IMG/VR virus record: IMGVR_UViG_3300036832_000855
Location: 1 to 64,000 of that record
Reading direction: 5' to 3' (one strand)
DNA: 64,000 nucleotides
DNA from: a virus
The position numbers and the translations under genes are program-made. Below are positions 50,061 through 63,700 of the stretch, piece by piece. A model generated the notes under the pieces. The model was given only the letters and a program-made list of their open reading frames with translations, was not told where the DNA came from and did no database searches. Position 1 is the first letter of the stretch. Each line of letters starts with the position of its first letter.

Positions 50061-51224
50061 TCACGTCTTGATCAGGTACGTCGCGGCGACCCAGGGCTGC
50101 ATCACGTTGTGCGCAGCGCCGCCGCCGTCGTTGTTGATCGGGTGGGTGTGGCGAGTGTTCGCGCCGCCCGACTGGGCGCTCCACGTGTGGGTGTGGTTGG
50201 CGCTGATCCCACCCGTCTGGGCGCTGAACGAGTGCGCGTGGCGCGCGGTCGCTCCACTGGTGCCCGATCCACCGCCGATCGTTGCGCAACCCTGCCCGCC
50301 GGACTGGGTGACGGGCGAGTTGCTCGGGGACAGCGCCAGGTTGTGCGCGTGGTCCGGGCTGTCGGTCCCCGTGGTACCCGAAACGGCGTGCGAGTGATCG
50401 CTGCTCACGTAGCTGGTGGTCCCCGAGCTGTAGTGCGAGTGGTCGGGCGTGTCGTTCCCGGTGCTCGCGCCGTGCGCGTGGACCGGCATCTCGGCGTTCG
50501 CGAGCAGGTGGGTCTCCTCGCCGCCCTTGCTGGCGAGCACCCGGCTCGTCAGGCCCGCACCCTGCCCGGCGCCGATGGGAGCGCGGCCACGGAAGTCTGG
50601 AAGGGCAAACGTGGTCGATCCATCGCCTTGCCCCCACGGTGAAGTAGTGCCGCCAAGCGCCGCGTACAGCGCCGGAAAGGTAGTGCGACTCACCGTGGAG
50701 CCGTCGCACACGAGCCATCCGGCAGGCGGGGTCTGGCAGGCGGTCAACTTGATGTCCCCGGGCTGCCAGAGCTGCGCGCCGTCGACACCGCCGTCCACGA
50801 GCTGGCGCAGGTTTGTGATGCGCGTCCCATCGAAGATCGCCTCGCCGATCTTGCGGTAATGCGGCGTCGCCGGGGTGCCGGTCAGCAGCGCCGTCAGCGC
50901 GAACGTGTAGTCGGTCGAGTCGGTCTCGGGCGGCGGCGGCGTCGGGTTGGTCGCGAACGAGTTGTTGCCGGTGGTCGCGAAGATGCTGTAGGTCCCGGCC
51001 GCGCCGGTGACGGTCGTCTGGACGGTCGCGGAGACATAGCGCCACAGGCCGTCGATCCCGAGCGACACCTGGGCGTTACCGACGCCCGCGGCGATCTGGA
51101 CCTGATTGGAGCCGATCTGCGTCAGGAACAGGTTGCGGCTGCTCACACCGACAAACTCCTGGAGCGCGTCCAGGAAGTCCTGCGGGATCGGACTGCCGTA
51201 GCTGAGCTGCCGGTGCTTGCTCAC
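50061..51224 (-). CDS. Tail-collar fibre protein with HxH repeats (387 aa), GTG start
   Basis: About residues 1-130 form the adhesion/fibre base. ACQTPPAGWLVCDGSTVSRT, TFPALYAALGG and FALPDFRGRAPIGAGQGAG make a phage tail-collar domain. The C-terminal third has many HxH motifs (DHSH, DHAH, RHAH, NHTH, RHTH), as in T4 gp37-type needles where histidine pairs bind metal ions. The block NNSPVTQSGGQGCATIGGGS-like is shared with the fibre at 60713-63886. GTG overlaps the upstream stop. Confidence 0.8.
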   Translation of the reverse strand: MSKHRQLSYGSPIPQDFLDALQEFVGVSSRNLFLTQIGSNQVQIAAGVGNAQVSLGIDGLWRYVSATVQTTVTGAAGTYSIFATTGNNSFATNPTPPPPETDSTDYTFALTALLTGTPATPHYRKIGEAIFDGTRITNLRQLVDGGVDGAQLWQPGDIKLTACQTPPAGWLVCDGSTVSRTTFPALYAALGGTTSPWGQGDGSTTFALPDFRGRAPIGAGQGAGLTSRVLASKGGEETHLLANAEMPVHAHGASTGNDTPDHSHYSSGTTSYVSSDHSHAVSGTTGTDSPDHAHNLALSPSNSPVTQSGGQGCATIGGGSGTSGATARHAHSFSAQTGGISANHTHTWSAQSGGANTRHTHPINNDGGGAAHNVMQPWVAATYLIKT

Positions 51225-52336
51225 AGGGTGCCTCCGATGTTCGTGATGCCGACGAAGAAGCCATCCGAATACCCCTCGGTGATCGCCAGGTGCGCGGGCG
51301 TGAGATCGCGGATGAACGGCCAGCCGAAGCCCGCGTACGCCTGCGGGATCTTGATCGAAACCGTGTTCGCAGGTGGGGAGTTCGTCTGGGTGCTGGAGCT
51401 GTTGCCTGGCGTGCCCGTCCAGGTGCCGTTCAGATCCCCCGAGAAGTAGGCGGGGGCGGTTGCCCCGAGCAGCGCGAGTGCGGAGTCGACGTAAACGGTC
51501 TGCGCAGGGGTCACCGTGAACTGGATACACGCCGTGACGTTGGTGCGGTTCGCGGTCGGCGTCCACGTCGTCGTGTACCGCGTCCACGCGGTCGTCAGCA
51601 CATTGTTGGCGCTTGTGCCGAGATCGCCGCCGACGCCCAGGATGACGGCTGCTCGCTCACCACCAGCGTTGCCCTTCAGGTAGACCGCGAACGTGTACGT
51701 GACCCCTGCGGTGAAGGTGCCCGGCAGAAGTACCTCAGCGCCCTCGGCAGCAAGCGAGCCGTTCGACACGATCCGCATGGTGTTGTTGCCCGACTGCGCC
51801 GCGCCGGTCTGGCAGGTGAGGGCTGCTCCGACGTTGTTGAAGTTGCGCGACGCCGCCCACGCAGCAGGCGCCGCGCCGACCGTGTCGTGCTCGAAGCTCG
51901 GGTTCGGGATGAGGTTCGTGTAGTCCGTCGCCGGGTTGTGCTCCTGGTAGGACCAGCTCGTGCCGAACAGCGCGGTGATGCTGGCCTCCCAGTCCAGGCC
52001 GCGCCCCTGGCCCTTGAGCCGCCGCATGGTCGCGAGCGCGAGCTGCTGGCGGGCGGCGAGCGTCAGCCCGGGCGGGTTGATCGGCAGGCCGAGGAGCTGC
52101 TCGAACATCGGCAGCAGCGCGTCGGCGCTGGCCGGAAGGAAGTTCAGGATCACTGCCTGGCGTGCCTGTTCGAGCCGCAGCAGCTCGTTCGCGACGACCT
52201 CCAGGACCGTCTGGACCTCGTAGGCCGAGCGTTCGAACGGCGGCACCTCGCTGAGCAGATCGGCCGGATCCTCGTCGACCTGCGCCATGGTGCCGGGGCC
52301 GAACACCGCAAGCGGATCGGTCACGGTCACCGACAT
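51221..52336 (-). CDS. XkdU/YmfQ-like baseplate protein with carbohydrate-binding-like insert (371 aa)
   Basis: Residues 20-130 (DPADLLSEVPPFERSAYEVQ, FLPASADALLPMFEQLLGLP, ATMRRLKGQGRGLDW) match the DUF2313/XkdU baseplate pattern. An insert of about 170 residues (LIPNPSFEHDTVGAAPAAWA, TYTFAVYLKGNAGGE, TACIQFTVTPAQTVYVDSAL) has the jelly-roll pattern of carbohydrate-binding modules. The C-terminal part returns to the XkdU end (WPFIRDLTPAHLAITEGYSD). It presumably contacts the host surface. Confidence 0.8.
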   Translation of the reverse strand: MSVTVTDPLAVFGPGTMAQVDEDPADLLSEVPPFERSAYEVQTVLEVVANELLRLEQARQAVILNFLPASADALLPMFEQLLGLPINPPGLTLAARQQLALATMRRLKGQGRGLDWEASITALFGTSWSYQEHNPATDYTNLIPNPSFEHDTVGAAPAAWAASRNFNNVGAALTCQTGAAQSGNNTMRIVSNGSLAAEGAEVLLPGTFTAGVTYTFAVYLKGNAGGERAAVILGVGGDLGTSANNVLTTAWTRYTTTWTPTANRTNVTACIQFTVTPAQTVYVDSALALLGATAPAYFSGDLNGTWTGTPGNSSSTQTNSPPANTVSIKIPQAYAGFGWPFIRDLTPAHLAITEGYSDGFFVGITNIGGTL

Positions 52337-52340
52337 GGGC

Positions 52341-53825
52341 TCAGCCGTCCGTCAGGGTCACGGTGCCCAGTTGGGCCACCTGCGGCGACGCGCCCGCCGC
52401 GAGCGCGATGTCGTTTACGGCACCGTTGACGAGCAGGTTGTTGACCTTGTGCACGCCGGTGACGAAGAAGGCTGCCTGCACGTGCTCGTAGACGATCGTG
52501 TCGCCAGGCTGGAGGCCTTGCAGGTAGGTCGCGAGCGCGGTCATGATCGCCTGCCGGGTCGCGATCGTGTTGCTGGTGCCGTCGAGCGTGTAGCCCTTCT
52601 CGGGGACGACCGTGGCCGAGATCGTGACCGTCAGGATCGCGGACGTGACGACGGTTACCGTGGCGCCGATCGGAGCTTGACCCTGCCCAAGCCCCGGCGT
52701 CGGATCGAGGAACTGCTGAAGCGTGGTAACGACACTGGCCGTGACCGGCGTACCGTCTGCGTTCATCGCGACGACCAGCACGGTTCCGGCGCCGTTCCAG
52801 ACCGGGATCACCGCCGCCCGACCGACGCCCTCCGACGCCGCCCAGCGCCGGTAGTCGGTGACGTTGCCGCCGCCCGACGTGCCGACGTACTCGCCGAGGA
52901 TCCGCAGCCGGAAGTCGTCGTCGGATTCCTCCTCCTGACCGCCCTGCATCGCACTCGGGTTGAAGACCGAGATCACGGTCGGGAGGACGGTGTCGAGCGA
53001 CGTGACCGCATTCGCAGCAACGTTGCTCGCTGTACCCGGCGTGAGCGCCTGCGCTGCCAGTGTGATCCCCGACGTCGTGTTCGTCGTCGGCTCGATCACG
53101 GTCGTGTTCGGCGAGACAGCGCCCGTGTCCGCGTAGGTCAAAGCGGTCACCGAGGCGAGAAGCTGCCCGGTCGACTGCGCCGTCTGCGTGACGTACACGT
53201 TGTAGGAGGTCGCGCCGCTGACGGCAGTCCAAGTGATCGTGTTCCGAGACGTCGTGCCCGTGTTCACGACCGACACGTCGGCGGAGCCGGTCGTCTCCCC
53301 GAACGCGTTCAGCGCCGTCACGTGGTAGTAGCGCGTGCCCGCGGCCAGCGTGCCGCCCGTGGTGGCACCCGCGACCGCCACGCCGGTGGGCTTGGGCAGC
53401 GACGCCGACGACGTCCCGCTCGCGGTCGTCTGGTAGCTCTGCACGTCGCCGGTCAGCGGAGCGACGGCCGACGCCTGCGTTCCGGCAGCGATCAGGGTCG
53501 GCGCCGACGCAAGGAACGTCAGCGAGCCGACGGCTGACGTCGCCGGGTTGCGCGTCAGCCCGAACGTGGTTCCGTGCTCGTCCAGGTAGTCGCCCCACGC
53601 GGTCGACGGGAACGCCGCGGCGATCGTCTCGGTCATCGCGTCCCACAGCCGCGCGCACTCCATCGCGGGCGGTTGCGTCATGTCCCAGTAGAACGAGCCC
53701 TCGCGAGTGTCCACCCAATCCGGGTCGTCGGTGGCCAGCCCGGCGTTGGCGTCCTGGTCCATCCGGGCCCGGACGCGCGCGAGCGTCTCGGAGAAGATCT
53801 CGGTCAGGTCAGTGACGTCTGTCAT
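52341..53825 (-). CDS. Baseplate J-like protein (494 aa)
   Basis: DLTEIFSETLARVRARMDQD, GSFYWDMTQPPAMECARLWD and GDYLDEHGTTFGLTRNPATS are the N-terminal baseplate J/XkdT signature. EEESDDDFRLRILGEY and YRRWAASEGVGRAAVIPVW are the central one. A fibronectin-like insert (VAVAGATTGGTLAAGTRYYH, TYNVYVTQ-like) lies at about 140-240. It forms the wedge of a contractile tail baseplate. ATG overlaps the XkdS-like stop. Confidence 0.9.
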   Translation of the reverse strand: MTDVTDLTEIFSETLARVRARMDQDANAGLATDDPDWVDTREGSFYWDMTQPPAMECARLWDAMTETIAAAFPSTAWGDYLDEHGTTFGLTRNPATSAVGSLTFLASAPTLIAAGTQASAVAPLTGDVQSYQTTASGTSSASLPKPTGVAVAGATTGGTLAAGTRYYHVTALNAFGETTGSADVSVVNTGTTSRNTITWTAVSGATSYNVYVTQTAQSTGQLLASVTALTYADTGAVSPNTTVIEPTTNTTSGITLAAQALTPGTASNVAANAVTSLDTVLPTVISVFNPSAMQGGQEEESDDDFRLRILGEYVGTSGGGNVTDYRRWAASEGVGRAAVIPVWNGAGTVLVVAMNADGTPVTASVVTTLQQFLDPTPGLGQGQAPIGATVTVVTSAILTVTISATVVPEKGYTLDGTSNTIATRQAIMTALATYLQGLQPGDTIVYEHVQAAFFVTGVHKVNNLLVNGAVNDIALAAGASPQVAQLGTVTLTDG

Positions 53826-54349
53826 GTGATCGGGATGTTGCTGAATTCGAGAGGCTGGGTCTGCAACGGCGGCGCGCCGTCCACGATCACTGTGAACGAT
53901 GCGTAGAGCACCTCGTCAAACGGATCTTGCGAGAACCCGAAGCCCTCGACGGCCACGATCCGGTCGTGCACGAGGAGGGCCTCGGTGAGCCCGTCCTCAT
54001 ACGCGGAGAGCAGCGCGTCGTCGGCCTGCTGGCCGATCAGCGCGTCCGGCTCCTCAACGCCGTACTGGTCCGAGTAGATCGGGTGCGCGTACCGGGCTGT
54101 GCGCGCCGTTTTCTCGATCCACATGATCAGACTGTCCAGCTCGTAGGTCTCCTGCGGCGCCGTGCCGTCCTTGACGAATTGCCCGGCGACGAAGTCGAAC
54201 CGCCAGCTCTTGCCGAACGGGATCGGCGCGTCCGGATCGGTGTCGACCACGGGTGCGAGCGCCGCGTCGAGCTGGAGGTCCGGGTTGATCAGTCCAGGGT
54301 CGGGCGGGATCAGGTCGTAGCCGAGTGAGTCGGGCTCGATGATGCTCAT
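53822..54349 (-). CDS. XkdS/W-like baseplate protein (175 aa)
   Basis: PFGKSWRFDFVAGQFVKDGT and LDSLIMWIEKTARTARYAHP, YSDQYGVE match DUF2634/XkdS baseplate proteins, related to gp25-like wedge proteins. It precedes the J-like gene as in B. subtilis PBSX, supporting a contractile tail. Confidence 0.85.
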   Translation of the reverse strand: MSIIEPDSLGYDLIPPDPGLINPDLQLDAALAPVVDTDPDAPIPFGKSWRFDFVAGQFVKDGTAPQETYELDSLIMWIEKTARTARYAHPIYSDQYGVEEPDALIGQQADDALLSAYEDGLTEALLVHDRIVAVEGFGFSQDPFDEVLYASFTVIVDGAPPLQTQPLEFSNIPIT

Positions 54350-54714: not shown

Positions 54715-55437
54715 CTAGATCTGGATCGTTTGGACGGTCTCGGCCGCGACCCCGTCGTCGTCGGTGACCGCCAGTGTCACGTCGTAGCTGCCGAACTTCG
54801 TGAACGTGTACATCGGCGTCGGACCGGCATCGAGCAGCTCGTCGGCTCCGAAGCTCCAGTCGTAGCGCGCAATCGGAGTCGCGCCCGGCGTCGAGGAACT
54901 CGCGTCGAACTGAACCTGGTCGCCCTTCTGCGGCTCGGTCGGCGTGAACGTGAACGCGGCGACGGGAGGCGACGGCTCGACGTCAGGCGGCGGCGGCTCA
55001 ACTGGCGGCTCGTCCGGTGGCGGCTCCTCCGGTGGCGCTACCGACGACGCTGGGGGCACTCCAGGCGCCATCGTCGGCGGGAACACCTGCAAGGCGCCGC
55101 GGATCAGCAGGTTCACCTGCTCGGTCAACGCCCGGACCTGCTGGTTGATGGTGGCCGTCGACGCGTCCCGAGCCCTGAGGAACATCTGGTTGGGCCGAAG
55201 GCAGTCGTGCAACTGGTCGCGTCCCGCCTGGCGAACCTGCTCCAGCGCCTGCGGCGCTCCGGGCGAGAACGTCTCGCCGTCGTACGTGTACCCCGGCTCA
55301 GGTCGCGGGTCAGCGTCAGTCGCATTCACGAAGGCGGGCGCAACCATGTGCGGCGGGATCGTGTCCGAGCCGTAGTCGTACATCGTGACGACCACCGCCG
55401 GGTCTTGCGTTGCGTCAAGTTCTGCAATCAGTGTCAT
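54715..55437 (-). CDS. Tail-associated protein with C-terminal PKD domain (240 aa)
   Basis: N-terminal 60 residues (TLIAELDATQDPAVVVTMYD, GYTYDGETFSPGAP) resemble tail-fibre chaperone/assembly starts. A helical segment (DASTATINQQVRALTEQVNL) and a proline/glutamate linker lead to a PKD fold (AAFTFTPTEPQKGDQVQFDA, IARYDWSFGADEL, YTFTKFGSYDVTLAVTDDDG). PKD domains mediate surface adhesion. ATG overlaps the giant fibre stop. Confidence 0.7.
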   Translation of the reverse strand: MTLIAELDATQDPAVVVTMYDYGSDTIPPHMVAPAFVNATDADPRPEPGYTYDGETFSPGAPQALEQVRQAGRDQLHDCLRPNQMFLRARDASTATINQQVRALTEQVNLLIRGALQVFPPTMAPGVPPASSVAPPEEPPPDEPPVEPPPPDVEPSPPVAAFTFTPTEPQKGDQVQFDASSSTPGATPIARYDWSFGADELLDAGPTPMYTFTKFGSYDVTLAVTDDDGVAAETVQTIQI

Positions 55438-58400
55438 CCGACCCTCCTGGGCTTCGCCTTGATCCATCCGTTTGCGTAGTTCGCCGCGTTGGCGGCGTTG
55501 TTCCAGACCATGAGCGACAAGACTTGTGCGGCGGTGAGATTGGCGAATACTTGCTCCCTCACCATGTCGCCCCCGCCCCACAGCGCAGTTGCCACCGACT
55601 GCGCGGCGACCCACCCGGTCGGCAGCGCACCATTCACGCCGACCGCCGTCTGAAGGTTGACCTGAGCGCTGACGGTCACCTGGCCGAAGCATCCCCACGT
55701 GACGTCATAGTCGCCCGGCAAAGGAACGGTGATCGTTGGCCCGCCACTAAGCGCCACCGCCGACGTCGATGAAGTGCCAGTGGAACCCGAAGGACCAGCT
55801 TGCATATCTGAGCCGCCAACAAGCTCCCACTTGTGCGTCGAGGTCGACGCCGCCCGGTACTTCAGGTGCCACACCACCCCGTTCGTTTGATCGGCCACGA
55901 AGTAGAACTCCTGCCCGTCGACCGGGTTCGACGGCAGCCCGGAGCTGGAGACGAGCGGAGTCGTGACCGGCAGCGGCGCGGGGGCCTGCGTGAGCAGAGA
56001 GACGGAGAGGAAGTTCTCGGTGATCGGTATGCCAACGTCGAGCGCGGTGCCCTGCCCGCTGTAGCACCACAGCTCGATGTAATCGCCTGCGTTGCACTGA
56101 ACCTTGTCACTAACCGCCGCCCCGTAGTAGTTCGCGACGGCGGGCTGGGAGTAGGCGCGAGACACCATCGCACCGTTCTTGTAGATCGCCACGAGAACGT
56201 TTGTGTAGGTGCCCGTAGCGCTGGCCGACGAGCCGAACTCCGCATCCACGGCGTAGACGCCAGCCACCGGGCAGACGTAGCGGCTATTGGCGATCTGGAT
56301 GCAGCCGCTCGGGTCGAACGAGACGGTGTCCACCGGGATCTTGGTGTAGGTGTTCGCTGGTGGCGTGTACGCGGCGTTGCGGTAGGCCCGTGCTGCGTAG
56401 GACGGTGCTGCGATCGGGGCGGTCCCGATCAGCGAGACGGACAGGTAGTTCTGCGACGGGCTTGCGACCACGGTCAGCGCCAGGTTGCAGTACGACCACA
56501 ACTCGATGTAGTCGCCCGCGTTGCACTGAATCTGGTCGCTGACCTCGCCGTATGCCGTGCCCCCTGACACCGGCGCGGCGATCGGCAGCGCCGACCACTG
56601 GGTGCCGTTCTTGTAGATGCCGACATAGCCGCTGGCTACGCCACCCGAGTTGTACCCGGCGAGCGCAGCGTCAACCTGGTAGTAGCCGCCGGTCGGGCAG
56701 ACGTACCGATTGTTCGCGATCTGAACGTTCCCGCCCGCGTCGAACCCAACGGTGTCGATCGGCACTTTCGCCCAGGCGTTCACGGTGGATTGCGTGAACG
56801 CTGCCGAGCGGTACGCCTTCGCCTGACTCGCGGGCTGTAGCGGCTGCTGCTGCACCGCCGTCGCCGCAACAAGCGAGACGGAGAGGTAGTTCGCGTTGTA
56901 CCCCGTCTGCAAGGGAGCGGTTGTACCGGCGTAGCCCCACAGCTCAAGTTTGTCGCCCGCGACACAGTTGATGATGTCGCTGACCACCACGGCAGGGAAA
57001 CCGCCCGCTACCGCGTCACTCTCACCCTGCGCGATGTTGCCACCGTTCTTGTATATGGCGGCTAGCACCCGCGTGGCTGCAGCCAACGGTTGCACCTGAA
57101 CCATCCCCGAGACCTCGTAGTAGCCAGCCACCGGGCAGACGTAGGAGCTGGGCGATACGCCAAAGTGGTTACCGGGATCAAACGGCACCGTGTCGACGGG
57201 GATCTTTGTCCACGTACCCGCCGTTATCGAGAACGCGCCATTGCGCCATGCTCGTGCTGCAGAGGTCGCGTTCAGGTTCGCCCCGGCGAGCGACCAACCC
57301 TGGTCGGTCCACGCCCCGCCGACCATCTGGAAAACCTCGCCATCGGACTGGCGTACGCAGAAGTCGCCGTTGTTGCCGGGGACCTGAGCGAGGGTCGGGG
57401 TGCCCGAGCCGTTGTACGTCTTCCAGCCCGCGCCGGGCGAGCCGCCCGTATCAACCTTGACAACCGAGAGGTAGTTGAAGGCCGAGCTTGTTAGAAGCGG
57501 GTCACCAACGCCCGAATAGGCGTACAACTCCACATAATCGCCCGCACTGAGCTGGAGAACGTCTGAGACGGTGACAGCCCAAGCACCGCCCGATCCCGGG
57601 ATGATGCGTCCCCCGTCTGTGCGGGCCGCACCATTTACGTTGATCTGAGCAATCAGCAGCGAGCCAGAAGCGGCGTTGGTCTCAACCTGACCTTCAACGT
57701 GGTAGTAGCCCGCAGTGGGGCAGACGTACCGCCCGTTCGCGATCTGGAGGTTGCTACCCGCGTCGTAGGTGACGGTGTCCACCGGGATCTTCGTGTAGGC
57801 GCCCGCAGACAGCGTCAATGCTGCGTTGCGGTACGCCCGCGCGGCCGTGTTCATCGCGTACTGGACGAACTGGCCCGTCTGGCCGACCATCGAGACGGAC
57901 AGGTAGTTGGTGACGGTAGCGACCTGAAGTGCGCCGCCCGTGCCGTAGCCCCACAGCTCCAGGTAGTCGCCAGCCTGGCAATAGATGATGTCGCTGACCG
58001 AAGACGAGTACGCGGTCGCAAAGGTGCCCGTCGCGGCCTGGGAGCCGTTCTTGTAGATGATCGCTTCGATGCTCCCCGTACCGACGCTGAGGTTGATCTG
58101 CCCGTCCACCTGGTAGTAGCCGCTCGCCGGACAGATGTAGCGACCGTTGGCGAGCTGGAAGTTGCCGCCCGGGTCGAACGACACCGTGTCGAACGGAATC
58201 TTCGTGTTGGTGCTCGCAGGCAGCGTGAACGCGGCACTGCGGTTCGCCCTAGCCTGCGTGACCGGCGCGACCCCGGCCGAGATCGACGAGACGAGCGAGA
58301 CGGCGAGGAACGTCTGCTGCGCGCCAGGGTTTATTCCTGCGATGGTGCTGTAGACGTACAGCTCAAGGTAGTCGCCCGCATTGCACTGGATGACGTCGGA

Positions 58401-60698
58401 AAGTACGGCGGTGCCGTTGACCACGTTAGATGTGAGTCCGGTGCCCACGGTGGCCACAGTGCCGTTCTTCTGAACCCAAATCTGGATGCTCTGGCCCGCC
58501 GCGGCCTGCTGCACAGAGCCCTCGATGTGGTAGTAGCCAGCCGTCTGGATCTGGATGCGGCCATTAGCGGTGCTGACAAGTCCAGACGTGTCGTAGCTGG
58601 CCGCGTCGAGCGGGATCTTCTGCCATGAACTCGCAGTGACCGACAGGGCGGCACTCCGGTACGCGCGCGCCGCTATCGCCCCGGTAGTCAGGCCGCTCTG
58701 GAGCTGCGCCTGCTGGCCGACCTGAACGACGGAGAGGTAGTTACTCCAGGTGCCGACTATGTTCATCGCGACGGCTGTACTCGCGTTCCAGGCGCCGAGT
58801 TGGAGATAGTCGCCCGCGTTGCACTGGATCACGTCCGAACCGACCGACTCTTGATTCACGGTTCCGACACCGCTACCCGTCGCCACCTGTGCGCCGTTCT
58901 TGAACAGCAGCGCTAGGCACGACGCGGAGCCGATGATGGCGAAGTTGCACTGGTAATAGCCAGTCACAGGACAGGTGTAGCGGTTGGTCGAGAGTGAGAA
59001 GTTCCCAGCGGGGTCGAAGCTAATGGTGTCAACGGGAACTGCCGCAGCGGTAGAGGCGGGAATCGTGTACGCAGCACCACGGTACGCCCGCGCTGCGCTC
59101 GTGACCGCCGGGCTGCTCGGCAGCGCCGACACCATCGAGACGGCGAGGAAGTTGCGCCAGGGCGTAGTCGATAGCGCTTGACTTGTGCCGCCCGGAGTCC
59201 AGACGTAAAGCTCTAGGTAATCACCCACGTTCAGTTGCAGGGTGTCGCTCAGCACGGCACCGGTCCCGCCCGAGCCGCTGGCGATGATGTTGCCCTCACT
59301 GCCCTCGACGCCATTTCGGTTCACGTAGATCTGCATGGACCCGGAAGTCATGCTTCCGGCCATCACCTCGGCGTCGATCTGGTAGTAGCCCGCGGTCTGG
59401 ATCTGGATGCGGTTATTCGCGAGCTGCACAAGGCCGCTCGTGTCGTAGTTGATCGCGTCGAGCGGAATCTTCTGCGCACCACCGGTCAGCGTGAACGCAC
59501 CGCTACGGTACGCCCGCGCGGCAACCGCCCCGGTGGTGAGGCCACTCGCGAGCTGTGTCGTCTGACCGACCATCGAGACCGAGAAGTAACAGCCGCTACT
59601 GCTCGGGTAGATCGGCTTCGCCGCTGCGTAGGTCCAGAACTCTAGATAGTCCCCGGCGTTGCAGAACACGATGTCGCTGACCGTTGCCCCGGCCTCGACA
59701 GGGTTGGCAGCGACCGTCGCACCCGACGCCGCCGAGGTGCCGTTCTTGTAGATCGCGGCGACGTAAGAGTCGGTCGTCGTGACATCGTTCACAGTGAACC
59801 CGGCGTTACACTGGTAGTACCCGGTGGCAGGCACGGTGTAGCGGCTGTTCGCCAAGTTGAAACACGCACCGGGGTCGTAGGCGATCGTGTCTACTGGAAA
59901 CTTCGTCCATCCGGTTCCCAGCGTGTATGCGGCGCTGCGCCATGCCCTCGCCTGCGTGACCGGCGAGACCGTCCCCGAGATCGAGGAGACGAGGGACGCG
60001 GAGAGGTAGTTGCTGGCGGCGTTGCCGGTGTACGTGTTGACGGCACCGGGCGAGTTCTGGAGCGCGTACAGCTCCAGGTAGTCGCCAGCGTTGCACTGGA
60101 CGACGTCAGCTACAGCCGCGCCGTAGTCCTGACCTGACGAGGTCGCGGCGAATATGCCGCCTGTAGTGACACGAACGCCGTTCTTGTAGATCGCCGCTAT
60201 GCACTCACCCGTCGCGCCCCCGGACGGCCCGCCGGACCATGCGCCCTCAACCTGGTAGTAGCCCGCGGTCTGAACCTGAATGCGACCGCTGGCGATGCTG
60301 ACCATTCCGCTCGTATCAAAGACGGTCGTGTCGACCGCGATCTTCGTCCATGTCGCACCCGACGGAAGGCTCACCGCCGCGTTGCGGTACGCGCGCGCCG
60401 CCACGGCCAGCGCCGGGATGCTCACGTCCGAGGAGTTCGCCCCCGAGTTGTCGACCGTCGTGACCCCAGCGCCCTTGAAGTTCAGGTTCGTCCGGGCAGG
60501 AAGGCTCGCGCCCTGGTTCTGAATCGTGTGCCCAGCACCGCCGCCGCCCCCGCTGCCCCCGGTCGCGGACACCCACGTAGACCCGTTCCACCAGTAGAGG
60601 ATGTTCGCCCCGGTGTCGTAGTACATCTCGCCATTCGCGGGCGACGCCGGGGCTCCAGCCAGGCGCGGCGGATGCAGGCGGCCAATGGTGTCGGGCAT
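55434..60698 (-). CDS. Giant tail fibre with ten tandem C1q-like repeats (1754 aa)
   Basis: The N-terminal adaptor (MPDTIGRLHPPRLAGAPASP, ANGEMYYDTGANILYWWNG) is shared with the next fibre. Then ten units of about 135-145 residues, each with ARAYRNAA-like start, KIPVDT..YD, GRYVCP.AGYY(Q/H)V, A.(I)YKNG, VSD.(I/V)QCNAGDYLELY and NYLSVSLV. This is the C1q/TNF-like jelly-roll pattern. Between units 7 and 8 lies a GTP..GD..VRQSDGEVFQ linker. The C-terminal 150 residues contain a different domain (FYFVADQTNGVVWHLKYRAA). Probably a trimeric receptor-binding protein. Start 60698 preceded by AGGGAGAGCGACACCG. Confidence 0.8.
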   Translation of the reverse strand: MPDTIGRLHPPRLAGAPASPANGEMYYDTGANILYWWNGSTWVSATGGSGGGGGAGHTIQNQGASLPARTNLNFKGAGVTTVDNSGANSSDVSIPALAVAARAYRNAAVSLPSGATWTKIAVDTTVFDTSGMVSIASGRIQVQTAGYYQVEGAWSGGPSGGATGECIAAIYKNGVRVTTGGIFAATSSGQDYGAAVADVVQCNAGDYLELYALQNSPGAVNTYTGNAASNYLSASLVSSISGTVSPVTQARAWRSAAYTLGTGWTKFPVDTIAYDPGACFNLANSRYTVPATGYYQCNAGFTVNDVTTTDSYVAAIYKNGTSAASGATVAANPVEAGATVSDIVFCNAGDYLEFWTYAAAKPIYPSSSGCYFSVSMVGQTTQLASGLTTGAVAARAYRSGAFTLTGGAQKIPLDAINYDTSGLVQLANNRIQIQTAGYYQIDAEVMAGSMTSGSMQIYVNRNGVEGSEGNIIASGSGGTGAVLSDTLQLNVGDYLELYVWTPGGTSQALSTTPWRNFLAVSMVSALPSSPAVTSAARAYRGAAYTIPASTAAAVPVDTISFDPAGNFSLSTNRYTCPVTGYYQCNFAIIGSASCLALLFKNGAQVATGSGVGTVNQESVGSDVIQCNAGDYLQLGAWNASTAVAMNIVGTWSNYLSVVQVGQQAQLQSGLTTGAIAARAYRSAALSVTASSWQKIPLDAASYDTSGLVSTANGRIQIQTAGYYHIEGSVQQAAAGQSIQIWVQKNGTVATVGTGLTSNVVNGTAVLSDVIQCNAGDYLELYVYSTIAGINPGAQQTFLAVSLVSSISAGVAPVTQARANRSAAFTLPASTNTKIPFDTVSFDPGGNFQLANGRYICPASGYYQVDGQINLSVGTGSIEAIIYKNGSQAATGTFATAYSSSVSDIIYCQAGDYLELWGYGTGGALQVATVTNYLSVSMVGQTGQFVQYAMNTAARAYRNAALTLSAGAYTKIPVDTVTYDAGSNLQIANGRYVCPTAGYYHVEGQVETNAASGSLLIAQINVNGAARTDGGRIIPGSGGAWAVTVSDVLQLSAGDYVELYAYSGVGDPLLTSSAFNYLSVVKVDTGGSPGAGWKTYNGSGTPTLAQVPGNNGDFCVRQSDGEVFQMVGGAWTDQGWSLAGANLNATSAARAWRNGAFSITAGTWTKIPVDTVPFDPGNHFGVSPSSYVCPVAGYYEVSGMVQVQPLAAATRVLAAIYKNGGNIAQGESDAVAGGFPAVVVSDIINCVAGDKLELWGYAGTTAPLQTGYNANYLSVSLVAATAVQQQPLQPASQAKAYRSAAFTQSTVNAWAKVPIDTVGFDAGGNVQIANNRYVCPTGGYYQVDAALAGYNSGGVASGYVGIYKNGTQWSALPIAAPVSGGTAYGEVSDQIQCNAGDYIELWSYCNLALTVVASPSQNYLSVSLIGTAPIAAPSYAARAYRNAAYTPPANTYTKIPVDTVSFDPSGCIQIANSRYVCPVAGVYAVDAEFGSSASATGTYTNVLVAIYKNGAMVSRAYSQPAVANYYGAAVSDKVQCNAGDYIELWCYSGQGTALDVGIPITENFLSVSLLTQAPAPLPVTTPLVSSSGLPSNPVDGQEFYFVADQTNGVVWHLKYRAASTSTHKWELVGGSDMQAGPSGSTGTSSTSAVALSGGPTITVPLPGDYDVTWGCFGQVTVSAQVNLQTAVGVNGALPTGWVAAQSVATALWGGGDMVREQVFANLTAAQVLSLMVWNNAANAANYANGWIKAKPRRVG
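56370..60410 (-). repeat. Ten tandem C1q-like repeat units
   Basis: Starts of units, read as the RAYR/RAWR-type motif on the minus strand, lie near 60390, 59945, 59515, 59090, 58665, 58245, 57835, 57250, 56815 and 56385, a period of about 425 bp except for 585 bp between the seventh and eighth. The last unit continues to about 55980. Units are diverged at the DNA level. Confidence 0.75.
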
Positions 60699-60712: not shown

Positions 60713-63700
60713 CTAGTTCACGATCTTCAAGCTGGCCCTGCCAACGGCAGTCGCGCCCGCTGCGACCACCCCACCCGCCGTATTCCAGTACCCGACCAGA
60801 AGCGACGTGATGTTCGTCGCTCCGTCCCACCAGTTCACGCCGCCGCGCCAGGTCATGCAATAGCTGGGCTGACCTGCCGGAACGAACGACCCCGAATGGT
60901 TGCTGCTGCGGCCCATCGCTTGCGGCGGGTTGATCGCCAGCGCCGAGATGCGCGTCTCCGAGTGCAGGCGCCCGCCGGTGTTCCAGTCGGAATGCCCGGC
61001 CGGAAACCCGTACGGCGGACAGCTACTCTTGCCCAGCCCATCGTTCGTGAACGTGGTCCCGTCCGTCGTGAACGTTCGGTTCTCAGCCCACTGGTTGAAC
61101 CCGCTGTACTGACCATTCGGCTGGATGAAGCAATACCAGTTGGCGGCTGCGCCGGTGACGATTATGTCGAGGACGACCTCGTACAGCACGTCCCGATTGC
61201 CATCCAGGCCGGTGAACGTGCACAGGACCGGAGTCCCCGTCACGTTGATCATCTGCACCGTCGGCGCTTGCGCGACCCCGGCCGACACCTTCCACGTCTG
61301 GTCGACCCATACGCCGCTGGTTCGTTTGAACACTTCGCTGTCGGACGTTCTCACGGCCATGTCGTTGTCGATCTCGCCGACAAACGAACCGACAGCGGGG
61401 GTGCCCGCCCCGTTGTACGAATACCAGTTCGACCCGCGTGTGCCGACCGCGTAGGTCGTCACCGCGTCGGTGTCGAACTCGACGTTCGAGAGGCTGAGAT
61501 AAGCATTGCTTGCATTCGCGGCCTGCACTTGGCCATCGGTGCCGACGTTGATTCGGACGTGCGCGTTGGAGTTCGTGTCGCAGGCGATGATCAGCGGAGC
61601 GGGCGGGCGATAGCCAGGCGGCAGCGTGAAGATCGTCGCCGCAGCCGTCCCACCTGCGACGAGACCCCTGACCTGAACCCTGCCATCGGGATACTTGCGG
61701 AACGACAACTGCTCGAACGAAGTCCTCACCGAGTAGTTGACCCAGGCGTTCTGGAACGCAGGCTCGCCGGAGCCTCCCACCCAGTGCCACGTGTCCATCG
61801 TCGCCATGCCGGTCGACTGCTTCCAGTTCTGATCGGTCCACACCCCGTTGATGCGCCGGAAGACCTCGCCGTCCGATGCCCGCACGGCCATGTCGCCGTC
61901 CAGCTCGTTCAGGAACGTACCCGCCGCGGGCGTCCCGGCGCCGGTGTACGTGAACCAGTTCGAGCCGCGCTGCCCTTGCGGGCCGGGCCCTGCCGTGATC
62001 AGCACTACCGACATGAACGTCATCTGCGCGTTGATCTGAACCGCTGTGCCCTGCTGGTTGAAGACCCACAGTTCCAGGTAGTCACCGGCGATGCACTGGA
62101 TCGTGTCGGCGTACGTGAGGCTGTCGCCTTGCTGCACAGCGGTAATCGGCCCGCCGTAGCCGTACAGCGCGCCGTTCTTGTACATCCCGACCGCGTAGTT
62201 CGTATACGTCCCCGTGCCGCTCATGGTGGACATGACGCTTGCGCTCACCTGGTACACGCCAGGAGTCGCAATGTTGAATCGGCCTTGCGACGTGTTGACC
62301 AAGCTTGCCGTGTCGTAGGAGACCGCTGCCATCGGTACCTTCGTCCAGGCGTTGGCAGCGGGCGTAAGTGCAGCGGTGGGATACCCCCGCGCTGCCACGA
62401 CCGGCGCGGTCGACCGATTCGTGTAGTTCTGGTCGACCCAGACCCCGTTGACCCGCTGGAACTCCTCGCCGTCCGACTTGCGGATGGCCCAGTCGCCGTC
62501 CAGCTCCCCAACGAACGTGCCCGCTGCCGGGGTGCCGACCCCGTTGTACATGAACCACGTTGCGCCTCGCAGGCCCGTCGCGCCCTGCAGCGCGCCGCCC
62601 GAGTTGACCTGCACGCCGGTTACTTTGACGATCAGGGCCACGGCGCACCAGGGCGGCATGTTCTCGTGAGTGCTGCCGCTTCCGTCGTTGTTGATCCCGA
62701 GCGCGGGCACCGAATGGGCGTGGTTCGAGTTGTTGTACGAGTTCGACTGCCAGTCCGTGTTACTCGTGGTGTTATGCGTGTGATTCGCGCTGATCCCGCT
62801 CGTGTTTGACCCACCGCCAATCGTCGCGCAGCCCTGGCCCCCGGACTGGGTCACTGGCGAGTTGTTCGCCGACAACGACAGGCTGTGCGAGTGGTCGTTC
62901 GACACGTAGCCCGTGTTGAAGTTGACGTTGTGGTAGTGGTTCGTATCGGCGTAACCGCTGGTACCGCCACCAGTCGCACCGCCGTGGTTATGGACGGCCA
63001 GCTCGGCCGTGATCAGCGCGTGGCGCTCCTCGCCGCCGTAGCCAGAGAGCGCGCGGCTAGTCAAGGCCGATCCGCCAGAGATCTTGCCGGTGCCGGACGC
63101 TCCGCCGCCGACGCCAACTCCGGACCCAACGAGCATCCGTCCTCGCAGGTCCGGGATGTTGAACGACGCGCCGTCCGGCAGACCCCACGGCGAGCCGGTG
63201 CTGCCAAGCGCGGTGAACAGGTCGGGGTAGGCGGCACGGTTCAGTGCCCGCCCGTCGGCCAGCATCCAGTTGGTCGGGATCGCCGCGCCCGTCCAGGCCT
63301 TGACCGTGCCGACCGGATCGGTGTCGTAGATGTTGCCGGTCGTCTTGTAGTTCTGGTCAATCCAAGACCCAGCGACGCGCTGGAACACCTCGTTGTCGGC
63401 GGCACGCACGCACAGGTCGCCGTTCAACTCGCCCGTGAACGTCCCGGGCGGTGGCGTGCCAAGGCTGGTGTACGTGTACCACAGCGAGCCGCGCGTTCCG
63501 GTCGGGCCCTGAGCCCCGGCGCCGGACAGCACCACAACGGTGTACTGGCCCGATGCCGGGACGCTCGTGGTGCGCACCGTCACCGTGCTGTTGTCGGTGT
63601 GCTCAACGTCGGCCTCGACGTCGTCGTACGGCGGGGCCGAGCGGTAGACGCGAACGATCACGTTCCGCGCGCCGAGGTTGTGGGTGACGACGAACGTCTG

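Follow-up and report, generated by a model that had tools for sequence, protein, structure and literature searches.

Relation to Described C1q-domain Proteins

C1q domains have been proposed as receptor-binding parts in pelagiphages (PMC3909814) in a Mu-like phage from cryoconite (PMC7468147), in Clg55 of corynephage CL31 (PMC9671496), and in gp30 of the tectivirus Toil (PMC5773508). The fibre gene described here, P0001, lies in a 64,000-nt stretch of DNA from an uncultured virus (positions 1 to 64,000 of IMG/VR record IMGVR_UViG_3300036832_000855, hereafter “the window”), which is part of a record of 122,419 bases. It resembles the phage proteins above in fold family, in its place among virion fibre or spike genes, in high variability, and in a proposed role in host recognition. 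They, however, have a single C1q domain or region, mostly C-terminal, whereas P0001 has ten, with two classes alternating among them.

Fold comparison (Foldseek) of a model of two adjacent units (an AB pair, see below) gives alignments over ~250–365 columns with actinobacteriophage minor tail proteins (Gordonia and Mycobacterium phages; BFVD models) and with the C-terminal domain of TM4 gp23 (PDB 9n6a). The sequence identity is low (~11–20%), and the aligned length corresponds to about two domains. The knob/petal of the phi812 central spike (PDB 9eul) is a solved structure (141 columns, root-mean-square deviation [rmsd] 3.2 Å, 20% identity), but it matches a single P0001 unit only, and in a spike protein. 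Among non-phage proteins, the BclA C-terminal domain (PF18573) and animal gC1q (PF00386) are like P0001 in their profile matches and ten-strand jelly roll, and in the collagen-like stretches nearby, found here in the adjacent fibre P0002; these proteins typically have one head on a collagen stalk, while P0001 has heads in a row with short linkers. Bivalve multi-C1q proteins (PMC6835236; PMC10672478) likewise have several C1q domains per chain, but have two or three, and the accessible portions of these two papers report no two-class alternation. Bdellovibrio MAT fibres have TNF-like tips, and one such tip binds a sugar of the bacterial surface (PMC10769870); the likeness is a trimeric fibre with a TNF/C1q-like tip, and the difference is that the tip is a single domain.

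C1q domains in phage fibres are thus already known, as are two-domain stretches in actinobacteriophage minor tail proteins by fold comparison. Neither ten C1q domains per chain nor a conserved two-class alternation was found in the accessible literature, which leaves out many subscription papers; within the same limits, nothing directly comparable was found in work on phi812 spike petals and tandem C1q phage fibres.

Ten C1q-like Units in P0001

P0001 (55434..60698, minus strand; 1754 aa), identified from its open reading frame and translation together with Pfam and PHROGs matches, begins with an ATG at 60698 and ends with a stop codon at 55436-55434; these coordinates are exact. Ten units can be recognised by the anchor A-[RK]-A-[YWN]-R, at aa 101, 250, 394, 536, 677, 816, 953, 1148, 1293, and 1436. 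They are 137–149 aa long, with pairwise identities of 31–51% and 13 invariant columns across all ten. A profile built from them has 11 matches in the 122,419-base record, ten in P0001 (E 1e-52 to 6e-61, values that show the coherence of the units more than they provide an independent test) and one in P0002; there were no further matches in the record. Independent Pfam profiles also match P0001: BclA_C at 9e-27 (PF18573; 93.9 bits, curated cut-off 38) and C1q at 1.4e-23 (PF00386; 83.9 bits, cut-off 23.7). In PHROGs, phrog_13989 (1.9e-60) and phrog_15750 (6e-59) each match nine stretches, and a PDB sequence match to the human C1q head was obtained at 5e-7. A chance origin of the ten-unit pattern is excluded.

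An earlier note, made from the DNA letters without database searches, had proposed ten diverged C1q-like units with an eleventh in the neighbouring fibre, and this is borne out by the anchors, the unit profile, Pfam, and PHROGs. It had also described the ten as tandem, which holds for their number but not for their continuity: units 1–7 are contiguous, and are followed by a 53-aa linker and then by units 8–10.

From the N-terminus (all on the minus strand), P0001 begins with a region (60408..60698) carrying the peptide PASPxxGxxYYxTxxNxLxWWNGxxW, recognised by direct comparison of P0001, P0002, and a third fibre gene (fib3) and matched by phrog_20787 (1.8e-8); this is a probable attachment segment. 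Units 1 (59961..60407), 3 (59103..59528), and 5 (58263..58679) belong to class A, and units 2 (59529..59960), 4 (58680..59102), and 6 (57852..58262) to class B, as assigned from the unit alignment and trees; units 3 and 4 are also included in one AlphaFold2 model, and units 5 and 6 in more than one. Unit 7 (57426..57851) is placed in a class C and clusters in the tree with units 5 and 6 of viral contig L010 (support 99/93). The 53-aa linker (57267..57425), read directly, is of the type W.TY.G.GTP...GDFCVRQSDGEVFQ...GAWTDQ, of which P0002 has several copies. Units 8 (56832..57266) and 9 (56403..56831) were delimited from the unit alignment and profile; unit 10 (55968..56402), also matched by the profile, clusters in the tree with SYAAR-type units of contigs L013, L014, and L018. 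The 179-aa C-terminal region (55437..55967) has weak C1q-like similarity (hmmsearch 5.9e-6 within a set of seven tips, in which the tip of a related array, L008, scores 3.9e-13), and is possibly the fibre tip. The G+C content over the array (56001-60000) is 0.639, vs. 0.66–0.71 elsewhere in the window.

Alternation of Two Unit Classes

Units 1–6 of P0001 alternate strictly between classes A and B, and the same A-B-A-B order is found in five related phages; this ordered alternation goes beyond the earlier note. Over nine contiguous arrays, mean identity is 35.2% at lag 1, 43.0% at lag 2, 34.2% at lag 3, and 42.4% at lag 4. When unit order was shuffled within arrays, 0 of 20,000 shuffles reached the observed lag difference, and a period-3 signal, sought in the same nine arrays, was not found. 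In a tree of 29 units from six arrays, a single branch splits A from B (support 100/99; present in 200 of 200 bootstrap trees). These tests were not blind: the pattern was noticed before testing, and the units of the 29-row tree were picked with it in mind. It was, on the other hand, recognised first in the window, and the five other phages subsequently showed it as well. In a larger tree of 72 units, class A groups together with a few further units (support 85/87), and the exclusive two-class picture is, on these trees, limited to the six arrays of the smaller one.

A single clade of P0001 units 1–6 is rejected (p 0.0151 with 72 rows, p 0.0008 with 29 rows). A units are 42.3% identical between phages and 44.9% within a phage; the corresponding values for B units are 43.6 and 43.1%, while A and B are ~34.5% identical to each other both within and between phages. 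Because the within- and between-phage identities of each class are alike, the A/B split goes back to before these phages diverged, and the arrays have not been homogenised.

The suggestion in the earlier note that the fibre evolved by unit duplication or diversification needs some revision: both are real, but the duplicated step is an A+B pair rather than a single unit, and it was not recent. The repeat-by-repeat phylogeny proposed there as a way to find recent duplications revealed none, and recent tandem duplication is rejected, as no pair of units is more than 51% identical and units 1–6 are not a clade.

In a more distant three-unit array (L017), units 1 and 3 are 47% identical to each other, vs. 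41% to unit 2, so that alternation may extend beyond the arrays considered here.

Array Length in Related Phages

The unit alignment, scanned against viral contigs, gave 33 loci, to which class A and class B alignments added more; the same kind of scan with a single P0001 sequence had no match. Among genome contigs there was a single, weak relative. Most open reading frames with units among the relatives have just one or two, and a few have 3–10: the L008 array comprises nine strong units with a weak one at its end, L010 has six plus three in the preceding gene, L011 has four and three, and L015 and L016 have four each. Annotated GenBank phages yielded four records in a tblastn search with the whole of P0001, at no more than 23% query coverage; a single-unit query matched mostly single domains, several of them annotated as C1q.

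Five of these loci (L008, L010, L011, L012, and L018) come from related phages, since their baseplate J proteins are 62–83% and their sheath initiators 68–90% identical to those of the window. L010 is the closest (83 and 90%, respectively), yet none of its units is more than 51% identical to those of the window. The array of the window has the order (AB)3-C, followed by the 53-aa linker and units 8–10, and that of L010 the order (AB)2-C, followed by a similar linker and one C-type unit; in both, the linker AM-x-TAAR is found between the last B and the next unit. L011, L015, and L016 each have (AB)2, and L008 has one unit of another class and then B-(AB)3. The simplest reading of the difference between the window and L010, going by unit order, is the gain or loss of one AB pair, and fibres appear to grow or shrink in two-unit steps; this comparison is of a small sample and implies no direction of change.

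The conserved alternation across arrays of four to eight units shows that domains of the adhesin type can make up a fibre shaft itself, and that they are duplicated two at a time. It provides a testable rule for how phage fibres change in length, and possibly in avidity; the arrays are also a natural supply of C1q-type domains, many in number, for study.

In L013, L014, and L018, the C1q-like units are distributed across neighbouring fibre genes, in many cases singly and with other sequence between them. Some are nearly identical between contigs and others very different, an unevenness that looks like a sign of mosaic exchange.

Predicted Fold and Variable Loops

AlphaFold2 modelling of the unit 5–unit 6 pair, with 15 aligned pairs, predicts two well-formed domains of ~10 strands each (pLDDT 87.2, pTM 0.54), with a lower-confidence linker; at this pTM the arrangement of A relative to B carries no confidence. 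C1q and TNF family members rank at the top of a Foldseek search of the PDB with this model, and C1QL1 is the best single-domain match by TM-score (TMt 0.84, rmsd 2.2 Å, 136 columns). A ten-strand C1q/TNF jelly roll is therefore the fold supported for the units by these predictions, in line with the Pfam and PDB sequence matches and with the C1q-like fold proposed earlier. Another fold, such as the beta-helix named in the earlier note as the outcome that would count against it, was not seen in the AlphaFold2 models or Foldseek matches.

When column entropy over the 15 AB pairs is mapped onto the predicted strands, the BC, DE, and FG turns have 0–1.4 bits, with nearly invariant NG and NAGD turns, while the CD, EF, and GH stretches are variable in both classes (~1.9–2.8 bits). 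No such contrast remains when all strands are averaged and compared with all loops (1.56 vs. 1.48 bits); on the predicted fold, the difference is one between the two ends of the domain, rather than between strands and loops. Strand counting places both chain termini at the conserved end, opposite the CD, EF, and GH loops. This fits a domain whose conserved base is turned toward the fibre and whose variable face is exposed. The three variable loops are probably the binding loops, making contact with glycans on the host surface, and appear to diverge rapidly.

One conceivable source of such variability, targeting by a diversity-generating retroelement, is rejected: a search for reverse transcriptase (RVT_1) had no match in the 122,419-base record, which may itself be incomplete.

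Possible Structure of the Fibre

The best explanation as a whole, to which we would give a probability of about 70%, is that P0001 encodes a homotrimeric adhesin fibre of the baseplate or tail, made up of a string of C1q heads, with the AB pair as its module and with diversifying loops. The N-terminal peptide would attach the fibre to the tail, and most of the remaining length would be a string of C1q/TNF jelly-roll heads. Three P0001 chains would assemble, each unit position forming a homotrimeric head; we infer trimerisation between chains because of the C1q/TNF fold, because of the Gly-X-Y stretches in P0002 and in relatives, and because lone units could trimerise in no other way. The CD, EF, and GH loops, on the far face, would touch host-surface glycans. 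The repeating module would be A followed by B, and fibres would lengthen or shorten by entire AB pairs; the loops would meanwhile diversify through ordinary divergence together with exchange between phages. A multivalent adhesin shaft would be the simplest account of P0001.

Several observations weigh against this proposal. The predicted fold has both chain ends emerging from the same face of each head, so that a coaxial rod is not automatic and a straight one should not be assumed, nor should the very long trimeric fibre foreseen in the earlier note; either the linkers of 10–16 aa would pass along each head, or the heads would project from a central thread. How domains with this arrangement of termini come to form a long fibre is a structural question of its own. 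A four-unit AlphaFold2 model (units 3–6) has low confidence (pLDDT 69.8, pTM 0.37), although by Foldseek it indicates the same C1q/TNF fold, and its alignment with engineered single-chain C1q/TNF trimers extends over three domains (TMt 0.44–0.51, rmsd 8–13 Å), leaving open, as far as the model goes, an intrachain arrangement of three units. In addition, some PHROG matches of the fibre genes are labelled “head and packaging.”

The chief structural alternative, and a serious one, is that three consecutive units of one chain form a C1q trimer, giving a row of self-contained heads in a chain that need not be homotrimeric. The position of the chain ends and the ~10–16 aa linkers would permit this, as engineered single-chain proteins with this geometry do form trimers; those of C1q, adiponectin, and BAFF are among the best matches of the four-unit model, but having several domains is in itself enough to raise the score of a chain in a search of this kind. 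Oyster multi-C1q proteins mostly have three domains (PMC6835236). The arrays, however, have a period of two with no period-3 signal, contiguous arrays come in sizes of 3, 4, 5, 7, and 8, mostly not divisible by three, many chains have lone units that could trimerise only between chains, and the AB pair model, the more confident of the two, fails to superpose on neighbouring protomers (rmsd ~21 Å); on this evidence intrachain trimers seem improbable. The array might instead be a passive spacer that sets the reach of the fibre, with binding by the C-terminal tip alone. This would account for the variation of array length between close relatives and for the differences among their C-terminal regions. 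The variation of the CD, EF, and GH loops in both classes and the limit of 51% identity between units, beside baseplate proteins at 83–90%, suggest instead that the units themselves are under diversifying pressure (though relaxed constraint could lead to the same pattern), and we regard a pure spacer as unlikely.

A location on the capsid, as a head fibre or decoration protein, is suggested by the filing of phrog_13989 and phrog_20787 under head and packaging, and by a match of P0002 to a head-decoration profile. It is hard to reconcile with the place of P0001 in a baseplate operon, downstream of tape measure-like and tail genes and upstream of the sheath initiator and baseplate J, the last two of which are retained downstream of the arrays in several relatives, and we consider it very unlikely. 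Repeat arrays are also prone to misassembly in metagenomes, but wrongly joined repeat copies would not be expected to differ at about half or more of their residues, as these units do, or to keep the frame open throughout; with an array of comparable length (nine strong units) in the independent contig L008, an assembly artefact is barely credible. More doubtful than the adhesin fibre itself, but deserving mention, is a stricter form of it in which the structure must repeat with the A-B pair as its period. Packed together through their conserved ends, A and B trimers would make a hexameric double head, and the fibre would be a chain of double heads, changing in length only by whole pairs. If true, it would represent a means of constructing modular adhesin fibres that has not been described before.

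Neighbouring Genes

On the minus strand, tail sheath-, tail tube-, and tape measure-like genes (labels given from sequence and position, without a family-library search) are followed by the third fibre gene, P0002, and P0001, and then by genes for a PKD-domain protein, a small protein, the sheath initiator, baseplate J, a Mu gp48-like protein, and a collar fibre. The PKD-domain gene (54715-55437) comes directly after P0001, with an ATGA start-stop overlap that suggests translational coupling. The sheath initiator (53822..54349, minus strand; PF10934, 1.8e-19) and baseplate J-like protein (52341..53825, minus strand; PF04865, 6.7e-47) belong to the same operon, farther downstream. The Mu gp48-like baseplate protein (51221-52336) has a CBM_4_9 carbohydrate-binding domain (1.4e-7), possibly another host-binding part. 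P0001 has both a fibre-type N-terminus and a location in the tail module, and because the sheath initiator, baseplate J, and other baseplate genes are neighbours of the fibre genes, it is taken to be a baseplate fibre of a contractile-tailed phage.

P0002 (60713..63886, minus strand; 1057 aa) has a collar domain, short Gly-X-Y stretches, 55-aa linker repeats, and the eleventh C1q-like unit, which is isolated within it (61982..62398, minus strand; unit profile 1e-36). The third fibre gene (L172:394-1728) is upstream of P0002. The N-terminal peptide given above for P0001 is similar in all three consecutive fibre genes, while their bodies are largely different, suggesting that they share one attachment point or are alternative fibres. 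The 55-aa repeat (GxxWYTYxGxGTPxxGTFxxExDGDxAVRxSDGEVFxRxxGxWxDQ) is present in several copies in P0002 and once in P0001 (57267-57425), often beside short Gly-X-Y stretches, and may be a linker module of phage fibres.

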